Assembly: GCA_001783715.1 (NCBI GenBank)
Contig: MFNF01000060.1
Span: forward strand, 1 to 63,908
Origin: Candidatus Lambdaproteobacteria bacterium RIFOXYD2_FULL_56_26
Lineage (GTDB): Bacteria; SAR324; XYD2-FULL-50-16
DNA length: 63,908 bases
Direction of reading: 5' to 3'
Below are positions 2,388-12,047 of the stretch, in pieces. Every line of letters starts with the position of its first letter. The first letter of the stretch is position 1. The notes under the pieces were generated by a model that saw nothing but the letters and a program-made list of their open reading frames with translations, did no database searches and was not told the origin of the DNA. Position numbers and translations under genes: made by a program.

Positions 2388-3221
2388 TTGCCCCCTGATC
2401 CCCTTGACCTGACTGGCTTTAGCCGTCCAAAACTGGCCCTTTCGGCCTGCCTGGGCTTTTTGTCCTGCCGGTATGACGGCACCGGATTCTTGTCCCCACT
2501 GCCTCGGCGGTTTTTTGACTGGGCCGAGGGGCGGCCCTTTTGCCCGGAAACCCAGGCGGGGCTCGGCACCCCCAGGACCCCGATCCAATGGGTATTGACC
2601 GGCGGTAGGCCGACCGTTGTGGAGCTGAAAAACGGGCAAGACCATTTGCCCCAACTGGAAAAAACGGCGCAATGCCTCTTGGGGGCCTGGGGCGAGTTGG
2701 AGGGTTTGTTGCTCAAGGCCCGCTCTCCCTCTTGTGCGCTCGACGACTGCCCCCGGTACCTGCCCGGAACATCCACCCCCACAAACTTTGGCCCAGGGGT
2801 GCTGGGAAAGGCGGCCTTGGACTCGGACCGGCCTTGGATCCTGGCCACCGAAGAGCAGGTCAAAACCCCCTGGGGCTTTGAGCTTTGGGCGGCCGGGTTG
2901 TTCCAATTGGCGAGGCTCAAGGCCCTCCCGGACAATCTGCTCCCTGACTTCCACCACCGGCAAACCGCCCTGTTGGAAGGCATGGGTGCAAAGGCAGCCT
3001 TGGAGGGATGCCGGTCAGACCGCCGGGAATATACCCACCGGTTTGCCCGGGCCTTCACCTCCCCGCCGGAGTACCAGGTTTTTTTGGCCAACTTGGGGCT
3101 GGGGAACACTTCCCCAGAGCTACCACTGCGGCTTGACCAATTGGCCGCCCTCTTGGGGGTTTCAGGCCAAAGTCTCAACCATCCTTATCCCCCTTCCCTT
3201 ACCGCCACAAGAAGCCCATGA
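2388..3221 (+). CDS. DUF523/DUF1722 family protein (YbbK/YbgA-like)
   Basis: The N-terminal part matches DUF523: LALSACLGFLSCRYDG near residue 15, FCPETQAGLGTPRTPI, and the diagnostic LKARSPSCAL near residue 110. The C-terminal 90 residues resemble a shortened DUF1722 (FHHRQTALL, then NHPYPPSL at the end). Conserved cysteines in DUF523 suggest metal or cofactor binding, but the function is not established. The start is a TTG at 2388 without a clear ribosome-binding site. The stop overlaps the next gene's ATG (ATGA at 3218-3221), so the two are translationally coupled. Confidence 0.75.
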   Translation: MPPDPLDLTGFSRPKLALSACLGFLSCRYDGTGFLSPLPRRFFDWAEGRPFCPETQAGLGTPRTPIQWVLTGGRPTVVELKNGQDHLPQLEKTAQCLLGAWGELEGLLLKARSPSCALDDCPRYLPGTSTPTNFGPGVLGKAALDSDRPWILATEEQVKTPWGFELWAAGLFQLARLKALPDNLLPDFHHRQTALLEGMGAKAALEGCRSDRREYTHRFARAFTSPPEYQVFLANLGLGNTSPELPLRLDQLAALLGVSGQSLNHPYPPSLTATRSP

Positions 3222-3685
3222 AACCACTTTTATCCGCTGAAAGCGATACACACCAAATCGCCTTGGACCTGTACCGGCAGCCCAAAGAGGCACTGCTGTC
3301 CACCCACAGTGCCAAGTTTGCCGGGTTTCCCTTTGGCTCGCTGGCCCCATATGTCCTTGGCCCCCAGGGGCAGCCGGTGGTCTTTTTGAGTGCGCTAGCC
3401 CAACATACCCAGAACCTGAGGCAAAACCCCTTGGCTTCTTTGACCCTGTTCCCCCCAGCCGTGACCCCGGAACAGGCTCGGCTGACCTTGCTGACTGAGG
3501 CTAGACTCTTTAAGGGCGACACTGACCCCCTCCTGACAGCCCACCAGACCCATTTCCCTTACAGCAAGGTTTACCTGGGGTTTGGGGATTTTTCCCCTTG
3601 GGAGCTGTGGGTCCAGCAGGCCTATTTGGTAGCTGGATTTGGTCGGGCCGGTTGGTTGGACCCGGCGGGTTTGTGGTCCCCCTGA
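3218..3685 (+). CDS. HugZ-like pyridoxamine 5'-phosphate oxidase-fold protein
   Basis: This 155-aa protein has the split-barrel flavin/heme fold of the HugZ/PNPOx-like superfamily. ALLSTHSAKFAGFPFGSLAPYVLGPQGQPVVF is the opening strand segment, followed by LAQHTQNLRQNPLASL, and FPYSKVYLGFGDFSPWELWVQQAYLVAGFGRAGWL is characteristic of the HugZ branch. It is likely a cytoplasmic heme or flavin binder, possibly acting in heme utilisation. The start codon overlaps the DUF523 stop, so the pair is probably one operon. A weak terminator follows at 3752-3775. Confidence 0.75.
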   Translation: MKPLLSAESDTHQIALDLYRQPKEALLSTHSAKFAGFPFGSLAPYVLGPQGQPVVFLSALAQHTQNLRQNPLASLTLFPPAVTPEQARLTLLTEARLFKGDTDPLLTAHQTHFPYSKVYLGFGDFSPWELWVQQAYLVAGFGRAGWLDPAGLWSP

Positions 3686-3839: not shown

Positions 3840-3865
3840 GTAAAATTATTTTACCTTCATTTTAC
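3840..3865 (+). promoter_or_regulatory. Pho-box-like direct repeat upstream of the PhoB-type regulator
   Basis: Two exact copies of ATTTTAC (3848-3854 and 3859-3865) are separated by 4 nt, giving an 11-bp period. This is the geometry of OmpR/PhoB-family boxes, where 7-bp half-sites repeat every helical turn. A third copy in reverse orientation (GTAAAAT, 3840-3846) abuts the first. A possible -10, GATAAC, lies at 3882-3887. The gene start is 87 nt downstream. The identical arrangement occurs again before the porin gene at 4666-4683. Autoregulation by the encoded regulator is an inference. Confidence 0.6.
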
Positions 3866-3952
3866 TTTCCCTTGGGGTTCAGATAACAACCAGTTTGTAT
3901 GGTTAGCTCACCAAGCCAGCCAACAGCAAGGCGGTGAACCTCTGGAGTGAAG

Positions 3953-4624
3953 ATGAATCACATCTTAGTGATCGAAGACCAAGAAGACGTTCGAGAGCTG
4001 ATCGCCTACAACCTGCGCAAGCAAGGTTACGAGGTTATCGAGGCCAACAACGCCAACGATGCATTGATCCTGCTCGAAGACATCAATTTGGACTTGATCC
4101 TCCTCGACTTGATGCTCCCCGGTTTGGGTGGACTGGATTTCTTGAAGATTTTAAAATCCAAGGAACCTTTCCAGGGGATCGCCGTCATTATCCTGTCGGC
4201 AAAAAGCGAAGAACAGGAAGTGGTCACCGGCCTCAAACTGGGGGCGGACGACTACATCCCCAAACCCTTTTCCATCAAGGTGTTGCTCGCCAAGATCGAG
4301 TCGGTTCTCCGTAGGGTCAACTCCCAAGAGCAGAGCCTGCTCCGGTACAAAGACCTGCTGCTCAACCAAGAGGAACACAAGGTGTACGCCTTGGGACAAG
4401 AAGTAACTTTGACCAACAAGGAATTTGAACTTTTGTCCCTTTTTTTGAAGAAACCCAAGAAGGTGTTTCACCGCAACCAGTTGCTCAACTCCATCTGGGG
4501 TTATGATTCAGAAACCTACACCCGGACCGTAGATGCCCATGTTTCTAGCTTGCGCAAGAAATTGGGCGAGCCGGGCAAGATGATCCGGTCTATCCCCAAA
4601 GTGGGGTACGGATTGGACATTTAG
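3953..4624 (+). CDS. OmpR/PhoB-family response regulator
   Basis: This 223-aa transcription factor has an N-terminal receiver (IEDQ acidic pair, phospho-acceptor Asp52 in LLDLMLPG, the switch Ser in ILSAKS, Lys in PKPF). The C-terminal winged helix covers about residues 125-223 (LTNKEFELLSLFL; VFHRNQLLNSIWG; TRTVDAHVSSLRKKLG; KVGYGL), which is close to PhoB/PhoP. I prefer the ATG at 3953, five bases after GGAG; a GTG at 3947 is in frame. No histidine kinase is adjacent, so it is an orphan here. Its own leader and that of the downstream porin share an 11-bp-period direct repeat, suggesting that both belong to its regulon. Confidence 0.92.
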   Translation: MNHILVIEDQEDVRELIAYNLRKQGYEVIEANNANDALILLEDINLDLILLDLMLPGLGGLDFLKILKSKEPFQGIAVIILSAKSEEQEVVTGLKLGADDYIPKPFSIKVLLAKIESVLRRVNSQEQSLLRYKDLLLNQEEHKVYALGQEVTLTNKEFELLSLFLKKPKKVFHRNQLLNSIWGYDSETYTRTVDAHVSSLRKKLGEPGKMIRSIPKVGYGLDI

Positions 4625-4665
4625 GCGGTTTGTTTTGTACCGCTTAATAAGATTGGGTCGGCCAG

Positions 4666-4683
4666 ATTTTACGGATATTTTAC
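4666..4683 (+). promoter_or_regulatory. Pho-box-like direct repeat upstream of the porin gene
   Basis: ATTTTAC occurs at 4666-4672 and 4677-4683, again with a 4-nt spacer. This is the same sequence and spacing as the pair at 3848-3865 in front of the regulator gene. The porin start codon is about 145 nt downstream, with a hairpin-rich leader between. Control of the porin by the neighbouring PhoB-type regulator is inferred. Confidence 0.6.
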
Positions 4684-4828: not shown

Positions 4829-5959
4829 ATGTCTTACATGAACTTCAAAAAATTGGCTCTCGCCGGTTTGGCTACTTTGATGGTAACCGGTGTTGCTTTT
4901 GCCGAAGGCGAAATGCCTGCCGCACCTGCTCCCGAAGCAGCCGCCGCTCCGGCCAACGACGATTTCAGCTTCAAGATGTCCGGCACCCTGCGGGAATACT
5001 TTGGGCAATACAACAGCGGTGTAAAGAACACCAGCGCCTACATGCAAGAGTTTGGTGAAGCCAACTTGGCCGCCAACGTGACCGCTGGTGCCATCACCGG
5101 TTACTTTGAATTGGAATCCCGTGATTTGGCAGTTGTTTCTGCAGTCCAACGGCGCTTGGACGCTAAGTTTGGGGACTTGAAAGTCTCTTTTGGTACCATC
5201 AAGCCCAAGGAATCCTACGCTTTGGCTGACGATGCCGAAACCGGCACCAAAACCAGCGACAGTGCCAGCTTTGGCTTCTACAAAGGCGAGTTGATCAAAA
5301 CCGAACTTGACGGCCTCCGGCTGGAATACAAAATCGGTAAAATCAAGGCCGGTGTGTCCTTGTACGAACGTGATGCCTTGAACGCCACCACCTACGCCAT
5401 GGTGGACAGCACTTCGGACACCGCCGTCAGCAAAAGCAAGTTCACCGCCAAGGCCTACAAAGAAGGCAGCGCCACCCAGTTTGGTGCCTACGGCGACTTG
5501 GGTCCGATCTACTTCCACCTCTCTTCGATCAGCTCCAAAACCGATGCTCATACCAGCACCGCCACGGTCCTGAACCACTCAGGTAGCCAACTGGGCGTTA
5601 GGTACAACATCGAAAAGGGCTTTTATGTCTCCGTGGACAGCGGCTCCAAGTCGATCGCCCAAGACACAACCTACAAGAAAAAATATGCCGACTCTGCTTT
5701 GCAGGTCAAATACACCTTGGGCAACCAACAGAGTGCTGTGGTTACCTTGGCTAGTATGACCTACCAAGACGAGAAATACGCTTCGACCAAGAAAAACGAC
5801 TACGCCTTGAGCAACACCAACCTGGTTTACAACATCCCCATGGGTAAAGGTGCAGAGTTCAAAGTACTGTACGCTTCTGAAGCCAACAAGCCTGAAATTG
5901 CCGGTGGTACCTCCGTCACCAAGTCTTATGTTGGTGCTGGTGCATATGTGAAGTTTTAA
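4829..5959 (+). CDS. outer-membrane beta-barrel porin
   Basis: This is a 376-aa exported protein. The Sec signal peptide is KKLALAGLATLMVTGVAFA, probably cleaved before EGEMP, and is followed by an Ala/Pro-rich linker. The rest is alternating polar and hydrophobic strands (GAITGYFELES, LRLEYKIGKIKAGVSLYE, ALQVKYTLGNQQSAVVTLA, VYNIPMGKGAEFKVLYA) and the chain ends in the barrel-assembly signal AYVKF with a terminal Phe. It should form a general or solute-selective pore. A Pho-box-like repeat and a structured leader lie upstream and a strong terminator lies downstream, so it is a single-gene unit. If the box is real, phosphate or another anion is a plausible substrate; that is inference. Confidence 0.85.
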   Translation: MSYMNFKKLALAGLATLMVTGVAFAEGEMPAAPAPEAAAAPANDDFSFKMSGTLREYFGQYNSGVKNTSAYMQEFGEANLAANVTAGAITGYFELESRDLAVVSAVQRRLDAKFGDLKVSFGTIKPKESYALADDAETGTKTSDSASFGFYKGELIKTELDGLRLEYKIGKIKAGVSLYERDALNATTYAMVDSTSDTAVSKSKFTAKAYKEGSATQFGAYGDLGPIYFHLSSISSKTDAHTSTATVLNHSGSQLGVRYNIEKGFYVSVDSGSKSIAQDTTYKKKYADSALQVKYTLGNQQSAVVTLASMTYQDEKYASTKKNDYALSNTNLVYNIPMGKGAEFKVLYASEANKPEIAGGTSVTKSYVGAGAYVKF

Positions 5960-6038: not shown

Positions 6039-7844
6039 ATGACCACCACCGAATTCGCCGCTCCCCCTCTTTTGGTCCCTGGACCGTTTCAATTGCCCCA
6101 GGCTTGGGTAAACCGCCTGAAGTCCTTGTCCTTTGCCTACCAACCGATCGTCCACATCCATTCGGGCGACCTCTTGGGAGTGGAGGCCTTGTTGCTGGAG
6201 GTCGAGCAGGTCGGCTACGGCGGGCCGCAGGAGTTTTTTGAGGTGCTCCGGGAGGAACGTTGTTGCGCCCAGGCGGAGCTTTTTTTGCTGGAAAAGGCGT
6301 TAAGCGGCTTTGCTCGGCTGCCCAACGTCCAAAACTACAAGCTTTTTTTTAACCTGGACCCCCAAAACCTGGGGGAACTCAAGACATTGGGTGAGAATCT
6401 GGTCCCGGTTTTGTCCAACCTGGGCCTGACCCGAGAACAGGTATGTTTCGAGCTTTCCGAGCGGCATTTGGGCATGGGTTATCTCCAGGCCGGAGCTTGG
6501 CTTGACCGGCTGCAATCCCAAGGTTTCGACCTTCTTTTGGACCACTTTGGCACCGGGCTGGCTGGGCTCAAGCTGCTCTACCATTCCCACCCCCAGTTCC
6601 TCAAAATCGACCGGTCCTTCCTTTTTGGGGTGCTGGACAACCCAAAGAAAAAGCTTTTTTTGACCAAGATGGTCAACCTGGCCCACCTGATGGAAACCAA
6701 GGTGATCCTCCAGGGAGTGGAAACCGAAGCGGAGTATTTTGCCTGCCGGGAAATGGGGGTGGATTTTGTACAGGGGCTTTTGATTGGAAGGCCAACCGAC
6801 CGGATCGATTCACTGCAACCCAAAAGCCTTTCGATCCTGGAACTTTGGGGCAAAGACCGCCGTAAGGCCAAGGGGGACTCCAAGTGGCTCTTGGCCCAGC
6901 TGGAGACGATCCCGCCGGTGACCGCCCATTCGAGTATGATTTATGTGCTCGACCAGTTCCGCAAATTCCGGGACCACTCCAGTTTCCCGGTGGTGAACGA
7001 CCAGGGAGAGCCGCTGGGGCTTATCTGTGAAGAGGACTTGAAACAATATGTTTACAGCCCTTTTGGCCGAGAGTTGATGCAAAACCGTTCCGCCGGGCTG
7101 ACCTTGGCCAACTTTCTCCAGCCTTGCCCCCAGGCGGACCTCAACACCCCGGTCGAAGAGGTGCTGGAGATCTACGCCCAAAGCGACAGCGCCAAAGGTA
7201 TCCTGATCACCGAGCAGGGCAATTACCTGGGCTTTTTGTCTTCCAACCGACTGCTCAAGCTGCTTTACGAGCGGAACCTGGCCAACGCCCGGGACCAGAA
7301 CCCCTTGACCGGGCTGCCGGGCAACCACCGGATCAGCCGGTTTGTCCAGGCCGCCTGCGCCGGAGCGACCAAGCACCTGGTGCTGGTTTATTTCGACTTC
7401 GACCACTTCAAACCCTTTAACGACAAACAGGGTTTTCGGGCCGGGGACCGGGCGATCCTGCTGTTTTCCGAGCTGATCCAAAAGCAACTGGGCCCCACCA
7501 CCGCCCTGCTGGGCCACATCGGCGGGGACGACTTTTTTGCCGCCTTCAGCAACACCGACTTTTTGACCGCACAAGCTCAAGTGAGTTCGGTTTGCCAGAG
7601 CTTCAAACGGGATGTCGAGAGTTTTTACAGTCCCGAAGACCGGGAACGGGGCTACATTGAGGCGGTCAGTCGGGAAGGGGACTTGCGGCGGTTTCCGCTC
7701 TTGGGGGTCAGTGCGGCGGTCTTGGAGGTCAAGGAGGGTACCACCGGTCTTACTTTGGAGCGAATCTCCGCCGGTACGGCGGCGCTGAAAAAGGGGGCGA
7801 AGGCTAGTCCGACCGGCCTTTTGGCGGCCGGTCTTTGGCGCTGA
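6039..7844 (+). CDS. EAL-CBS-CBS-GGDEF c-di-GMP protein
   Basis: This 601-aa cytoplasmic protein reads EAL (about 30-270), a CBS pair (about 275-405) and GGDEF (about 415-580). The EAL domain keeps Glu49 (GVEALL), FELSER, KIDRSF (Lys189/Asp191) and GVETEAE (Glu228). The metal motif normally written DDFGTG is DHFGTG here, with His169 replacing the second Asp. The cyclase signature is GGDDF (495-499) instead of GGDEF/GGEEF. The CBS pair usually binds adenine nucleotides and may couple energy state to c-di-GMP turnover. The order EAL-CBS-GGDEF is a known architecture. Whether either catalytic domain is active is uncertain. Confidence 0.88.
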   Translation: MTTTEFAAPPLLVPGPFQLPQAWVNRLKSLSFAYQPIVHIHSGDLLGVEALLLEVEQVGYGGPQEFFEVLREERCCAQAELFLLEKALSGFARLPNVQNYKLFFNLDPQNLGELKTLGENLVPVLSNLGLTREQVCFELSERHLGMGYLQAGAWLDRLQSQGFDLLLDHFGTGLAGLKLLYHSHPQFLKIDRSFLFGVLDNPKKKLFLTKMVNLAHLMETKVILQGVETEAEYFACREMGVDFVQGLLIGRPTDRIDSLQPKSLSILELWGKDRRKAKGDSKWLLAQLETIPPVTAHSSMIYVLDQFRKFRDHSSFPVVNDQGEPLGLICEEDLKQYVYSPFGRELMQNRSAGLTLANFLQPCPQADLNTPVEEVLEIYAQSDSAKGILITEQGNYLGFLSSNRLLKLLYERNLANARDQNPLTGLPGNHRISRFVQAACAGATKHLVLVYFDFDHFKPFNDKQGFRAGDRAILLFSELIQKQLGPTTALLGHIGGDDFFAAFSNTDFLTAQAQVSSVCQSFKRDVESFYSPEDRERGYIEAVSREGDLRRFPLLGVSAAVLEVKEGTTGLTLERISAGTAALKKGAKASPTGLLAAGLWR

Positions 7845-11131: not shown

Positions 11132-11527
11132 ATGAAAATGTTGGTTGTCGATGACACTTTGCTGAGCCGCCAATTGATGACGCACGCCCTCAAGACCTAT
11201 GGGGAAATCGAAATCGCGGTCAACGGGGAAGAAGCAATCGAAGCCTTTGAACTGGCCTGGAAGGACAAGTCGCCGTTTGACGTGATCTTCATGGACATCA
11301 TGATGCCCGAAATGGACGGCAGGGAGGCGCTGCGCCGCATCCGGGACTGGGAAGACAAAAACAAGGTAATCGACCCGGTCAAGGTCGTTATGTCCACCGC
11401 CTTGGGCGACAAGGACAACGTGCTTTCCTCCTTCAAGGAGGGGGCGGAGTATTATTTGGTCAAGCCGATTGAGCTCAACCGGCTCTACGACATTATGTCT
11501 CAGTTGGGTTATTCCAAAACAAAATAA
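11132..11527 (+). CDS. stand-alone receiver (CheY-like) response regulator 1
   Basis: This 131-aa protein is a single receiver domain: acidic pair in LVVDD, phospho-acceptor Asp55 in [11 protein letters not shown], Thr/Ser in VMSTALGD, and Lys in YLVKPIE. There is no output domain, so it probably acts by protein binding (phosphorelay shuttle or motor/kinase partner). It is a close paralogue of the next gene (11652) and of the receiver at 19983; all share a long RxWE...VKVVM insert between the Asp and Thr regions. An ATGA-type overlap is absent, and each gene has its own leader. Confidence 0.9.
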   Translation: MKMLVVDDTLLSRQLMTHALKTYGEIEIAVNGEEAIEAFELAWKDKSPFDVIFMDIMMPEMDGREALRRIRDWEDKNKVIDPVKVVMSTALGDKDNVLSSFKEGAEYYLVKPIELNRLYDIMSQLGYSKTK

Positions 11528-11651: not shown

Positions 11652-12047
11652 ATGAAAATTTTGGTGGTGGACGACAACCAGCTGGGTCGTCAAATGTTGG
11701 CACACGCTCTGCGGTCTTATGGGGAGTTGCGCTTGGCCTCCTCCGGTGAAGAGGCGATCGAGTCCTTCAAACAGGCTTGGGCCGAAGAGGCTCCTTTTGA
11801 CGTGATCTTCATGGACATCATGATGCCCGGCGTGGACGGCCAAGAGGCGCTGCGACAATTGCGGACCTGGGAGGCGGAGCACCAGGCCCAACCGCAAGTC
11901 AAGGTGGTGATGTCCACTGTTTTGGCGGACAAGGAAAACATCCAGACTTCCTTTAAGGCCGGGGCGGAATACTATCTGGTCAAGCCCTTTGAGCTGAAGC
12001 GGCTGGCCGAGGTCATGGCCAACCTGGGTTTCCCAAAGCCTGCCTGA
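11652..12047 (+). CDS. stand-alone receiver (CheY-like) response regulator 2
   Basis: This 131-aa single receiver is paralogous to the preceding one. It has LVVDD, Asp55 in FMDIMMPGVDG, VMSTVLAD and YYLVKPFE. The two share most of their residues and identical length, so this is a tandem duplication. It has no DNA-binding or enzymatic output. A hairpin-rich 124-nt leader separates it from copy 1, which suggests that expression of the two copies can differ. It converges on the DUF2914 gene with 13 nt between stops and no visible terminator. Confidence 0.9.
   Translation: MKILVVDDNQLGRQMLAHALRSYGELRLASSGEEAIESFKQAWAEEAPFDVIFMDIMMPGVDGQEALRQLRTWEAEHQAQPQVKVVMSTVLADKENIQTSFKAGAEYYLVKPFELKRLAEVMANLGFPKPA

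Follow-up and report, generated by a model that had tools for sequence, protein, structure and literature searches.

An exact tandem repeat, ATTTTAC-N4-ATTTTAC, stands upstream of both a PhoB-type response regulator gene and a porin-like gene in the window analyzed here (the whole stretch of 63,908 nucleotides), which raises the question of which protein would read this DNA word and how many genes it would govern. A preliminary description of the sequence had proposed a small self-contained regulon, consisting of an orphan regulator plus a pore, with a lineage-specific operator. We compared the window's genome (G000, 3.08 Mb) with relatives within the same family (G001 to G009). All assemblies are drafts; G001 is 88% complete, and G003 belongs to a different genus from the window's genome.

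Table 1. Features around the repeats, with positions in the window.
Feature	Position	Strand	Basis or comment
PNPOx/CREG-fold protein	3218..3685	+	Upstream neighbour; similar protein before the G003 regulator
Inverted copy GTAAAAT	3840..3846	-	Read from sequence; probably incidental
Box 1, ATTTTAC CTTC ATTTTAC	3848..3865	+	Presumed PhoB tandem-dimer site before the regulator (autoregulation)
Divergent PhoB, 223 aa, receiver and OmpR/PhoB winged helix	3953..4624	+	Pfam Response_reg, Trans_reg_C
Box 2, ATTTTAC GGAT ATTTTAC	4666..4683	+	Before the porin
Outer-membrane porin-like protein, 376 aa, presumed phosphate (oxyanion) pore	4829..5959	+	Signal peptide, C-terminal Phe, family alignment
EAL/CBS/GGDEF protein	6039..7844	+	Neighbour common to G003; not known to be a regulon member

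The repeats and the genes behind them

Both boxes were confirmed at the positions first described, ending 87 bp (box 1) and 145 bp (box 2) before the ATG codons of the regulator and porin genes. A scan of the window with up to two mismatches returned 2 matches, both exact, versus 0.23 expected. When each intergenic region was shuffled with its dinucleotides preserved, as good a site arose in 0/2000 and 1/2000 trials. The 7-bp unit and 11-bp period correspond, as proposed, to the box geometry of the OmpR/PhoB family, and the sequence does differ from the E. coli Pho box. By eye, no consistent -10 hexamer is shared downstream of the boxes. The third, inverted copy noted earlier is present, and was rejected as a part of the operator because the corresponding place before the G003 ortholog has no counterpart.

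Genome-wide searches used the full pattern ATTTTACN4ATTTTAC, with the reversed pattern as control, and the core TTTTACN5TTTTAC. In the 3.08 Mb of G000 the full pattern had no further match at zero or one mismatch, and at two mismatches it was at background (14 matches, the two exact ones included, versus 15 for the reversed pattern). Exact core sites were solely the two boxes. With up to one mismatch the core was not enriched (21 versus 22 for the control); the one-mismatch matches inspected lay mostly within reading frames or before unrelated genes, and none preceded a recognisable phosphate gene.

The intergenic regions of relatives bear out conservation of the boxes (G003, G005, G001). The G003 regulator is preceded by GTTTTACAATTGTTTTAC at a distance nearly equal to that in the window (-106 against -104) and the second G003 porin by ATTTTACGTTAATTTTAC, these being the only two exact core sites in that genome; in G005, ATTTTACATTTCTTTTAC precedes porin 1. 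Weaker, inexact copies accompany the phosphate transporter genes. The promoter of the G000 genes pstS-pstC-pstA-pstB-phoU (contig C57) carries ATATTACAATAACTTTACA, with the core copy ATATTACAATAACTTTAC (10/12 positions, 42/1000 shuffles), and the G003 pstS promoter carries ATTTTACAATTAATTTACA, with the core copy ATTTTACAATTAATTTAC (11/12, 4/1000 shuffles). The distance of the box is similar in the two promoters, and some 80 bp downstream of it both have another element, ATTTTAC-N5-TTGACA. G001 too has a weaker copy, before a pstS-porin gene pair in which the porin homolog starts 24 bp after pstS, behind CTTTTACAACTATCTTAC. Given the weaker pstS copies in G000 and G003, this part of the preliminary description, a regulon of a regulator plus a pore, is not supported; the regulon probably comprises phoB, the porin gene and pstSCAB-phoU. 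If a Pho box is taken as a tandem 7-bp repeat with an 11-bp period before phosphate genes, strong boxes stand at phoB and the porin gene and weaker ones at pstS. They are probably binding sites of the diverged PhoB, which would act as the phosphate-starvation regulator of this bacterium.

The assignment of the pore as a porin, made in the preliminary description, is probable. The window protein has no Pfam match, PDB sequence searches with the protein and its profile returned nothing notable, and a single-sequence AlphaFold model had a pLDDT of 30. Porin_4 matched one of nine members of its family (3.7e-6), which occurs in some members of the window's bacterial family. Together with the features in Table 1, a porin is likely.

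Some further observations concern these genes and their surroundings. The G005 and G003 porin genes are tandem pairs (L124 4456-7091; L125 7871-10153, reverse strand), with a TTTTAC box at just one porin of each pair. A porin paralog in G000 (L129, G000:C37, 1506-6348) is part of a molybdate locus, with the gene of a TOBE-domain (ModE-like) regulator on one side and modA/modC-like genes on the other; towards the 3' end its reading frame looks interrupted, either truly or through an assembly error. The 21 bp separating this paralog from the preceding gene contain no box, as would be predicted were it unrelated to phosphate. The arrangement suggests a family of oxyanion porins paired with ABC uptake systems. 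PstC (739 aa) and PstA (539 aa), both at L136 6844-10669, far exceed the usual length and have extensive additional segments, as they do in G003 too. Elsewhere in the window, two similar stand-alone receiver-domain (CheY-like) genes lie in tandem (11132-11527 and 11652-12047; n = 2).

A divergent PhoB-like regulator and its canonical relatives

The window regulator is an OmpR/PhoB-type response regulator by its receiver and Trans_reg_C winged helix, and the description as PhoB-type stands, PhoB (TIGR02154) being its best NCBIfam match. The score of 230 bits is under the cut-off of 296, as are those of canonical relatives beside pst-phoU or phoR (245 and 244 bits). Orthologs were found in G003 (81% identity), G001 (60%) and G005 (52%); among the 145 genomes surveyed, no others had comparable identity. 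Porin genes are again downstream of the regulator in G003 and G005. A maximum-likelihood tree separates divergent and canonical PhoB into two groups (support 100/99 each); where the divergent clade attaches relative to further PhoB-like proteins is poorly resolved.

The label 'orphan' holds for the position of the gene, which has no pst or phoR linkage in G000. It does not hold otherwise: the protein is the sole remaining PhoB-like regulator of that genome, where a phoR without adjacent phoB survives elsewhere, and the G001 ortholog is placed within pstC-pstA-pstB-phoB-phoR, after pstB and before a PhoR/PnpS-like kinase. The window regulator is probably the PhoB of its lineage.

In E. coli PhoB, base-specific contacts are made by T194, V197, R201 and R219 (PMC3264566), and the wing arginine inserts in the minor groove, as it likewise does in M. 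tuberculosis PhoP (PMC4832192). All four divergent regulators keep only T194 among these contacts, with A or S for V197, S for R201 and P for R219; canonical PhoBs retain R219. Since the base contacts are not those of E. coli PhoB, we filed the window regulator as divergent PhoB-like rather than as an E. coli-type PhoB. As a correlation, the residue changes would fit a changed operator.

Canonical PhoB and phoR lie within or adjoining the pst operon in G002, G006 and G009. A second motif, YTAACA-N5-YTAACA, forms tandem repeats with an 11-bp period before pstS in G002, G005, G006 and G009; it was first spotted in the same promoters that were later scored, so that the whole-genome scan is the fairer test. 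That scan found a single exact site in G005, at pstS, no exact site in the genomes of G000 and G003, and sites at pstS in G002, G006 and G009. In G002, such a pair also precedes a Na/Pi cotransporter gene that has a PhoU-domain gene behind it.

Both types of regulator, and both operators, occur in G005: a canonical PhoB encoded in mtnA-phoB-phoR and a divergent one adjoining the porin genes, YTAACA before pstS and TTTTAC before porin 1. Its canonical PhoB groups with PhoB of G002, G006 and G009, and its phoB gene overlaps phoR by 4 bp. The locus reads hrcA/mtnA-phoB-phoR in G005 and hrcA/mtnA-phoR, without phoB, in G000 and G003; a search with canonical PhoB found no distinct canonical-type protein in G000, G001 or G003. 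The match of regulator and operator is imperfect, because TTAACA-N5-TTAACA lies about 165 bp before pstC in G001 (L130, G001:C158), in front of the very operon in which the divergent phoB is found. As a separate observation, a second pst-like cluster in G005 (L141, G005:C47) directly follows an ArsR-like gene and is perhaps arsenic-linked.

A proposed takeover and its alternatives

Judged from these sequence comparisons, it is reasonably probable that a diverged PhoB, along with its own operator, took control of the Pho regulon, the canonical phoB being lost in the window's lineage. The lineage-specific operator of the preliminary description is real, and appears to accompany the replacement of a regulator. 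At low phosphate, the PhoR retained at mtnA-phoR would presumably phosphorylate the diverged PhoB, which would bind TTTTAC-N5-TTTTAC as a head-to-tail tandem dimer and activate its own gene, the porin gene (phosphate entry through the outer membrane) and, through the weaker boxes, pstSCAB-phoU (uptake across the inner membrane). In relatives with both regulators, canonical PhoB appears to read YTAACA-N5-YTAACA before pst. The direction of change may have run through stages. A diverged PhoB with altered recognition helix and wing would have run the porin beside canonical PhoB, as in G005; later, canonical PhoB would have been replaced, PhoR kept, and the pst operators rewritten from YTAACA to TTTTAC, as in G000 and G003. 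For these two steps taken jointly, we put the chances slightly above even. Several observations, besides the TTAACA-type box of the G001 pstC operon, count against the takeover reading: the 10/12 box at G000 pstS is weak on its own, and no box was found before the G005 divergent regulator, the second G005 porin or the first G003 porin.

A history without any takeover between coexisting regulators is unlikely, although it has points in its favor. PhoB would simply have drifted fast, its box changing alongside, and G005 would have acquired its canonical-type PhoB later, as the long branch (1.84) of that protein and the poorly resolved attachment of the divergent clade might indicate. However, this phoB sits, with its phoR overlap, in the very mtnA-phoR locus that G000 and G003 have without it, its product groups with the canonical proteins of three relatives, and loss of phoB is simpler than a precise insertion. 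It is on this shared gene order and on the regulator tree that we infer a takeover rather than an acquisition in G005. We see still less probability in a separate two-gene regulon of regulator and porin that serves a non-phosphate signal, with pst under other control. The restriction of strong boxes in G000 and G003 to the regulator and porin genes would agree with it, as would the state of G005, where the divergent regulator is beside porins and pst goes with canonical PhoB; but the G001 ortholog lies within a pst operon and the G001 porin after pstS, the TTTTAC-type boxes before pstS are conserved in G000 and G003, and these two genomes have no other PhoB-like regulator.

The remaining alternatives concern the repeat itself. 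Its AT-richness would suit another transcription factor or a promoter element, its nearness to a PhoB-like gene being coincidental, but this is very improbable in view of the 11-bp tandem geometry typical of the OmpR/PhoB family, the fact that two genera each have just two sites in the whole genome, which lie at the regulator/porin locus, and the way in which site type tracks regulator type across genomes. That an AT-rich motif whose one-mismatch copies occur at background frequency arose here by chance has next to no probability, given the shuffles (0 to 1/2000 per region) and a box conserved in three other genera.

Relation to known phosphate regulons

In E. coli, the porin gene phoE is under Pho boxes. 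The PhoB/PhoR system of this species (Pho box CTGTCAT-N4-CTGTCAT) resembles the proposed takeover system in its OmpR/PhoB regulator, in 7-bp direct repeats with an 11-bp period, in boxes before phoB, a porin gene and pst, and in autoregulation. Unlike it, the window regulator, 39% identical to E. coli PhoB, has other residues in place of R201 and of R219, the wing arginine, and the operator TTTTAC, its gene does not adjoin phoR, and the porin is not recognisably related to PhoE in a PDB sequence search. PhoE and OprP/OprO are phosphate porins. The role would be alike, that of a porin of the outer membrane belonging to a Pho regulon, with a link to pstS in G001; the window protein differs in having no Pfam or PDB sequence match and a G000 paralog in a molybdate locus.

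Bacillus PhoP boxes are of the TTAACA type. The canonical YTAACA box of the window's family is of this type and of that of the cyanobacterial SphR box, CTTAACCT (PMC1906773), with the 11-bp tandem period in common, and the window box, TTTTAC(A), departs from it chiefly in having T in place of A ahead of AC. Unlike the Bacillus PhoP and SphR systems, the family has two operator types that track two regulator clades. E. coli KdpE has TTTAYA half-sites and no wing arginine (PMC3264566); it is like the window regulator in that the minor-groove arginine is lost along with a T-rich half-site, but it belongs to a potassium system and a different subfamily.

It is established that Pho boxes differ from one species to another in line with the contacts of the regulator (PMC4415409). 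The new part here is an apparent swap of regulator and operator inside one family, with an intermediate; a narrow literature search found no case of such a swap with an intermediate in one family. The phosphate regulons of such lineages will escape detection when the E. coli Pho box or strict PhoB models are used to look for them. How the DNA words throughout a regulon can change in step with their master regulator while the function is kept is an open question. This one family shows a state with a single regulator, a state in which both regulators occur along with both operators, and a state after the apparent swap, and candidate specificity residues can be named, so that its related species would provide a natural series of stages before and after the exchange of a regulator.
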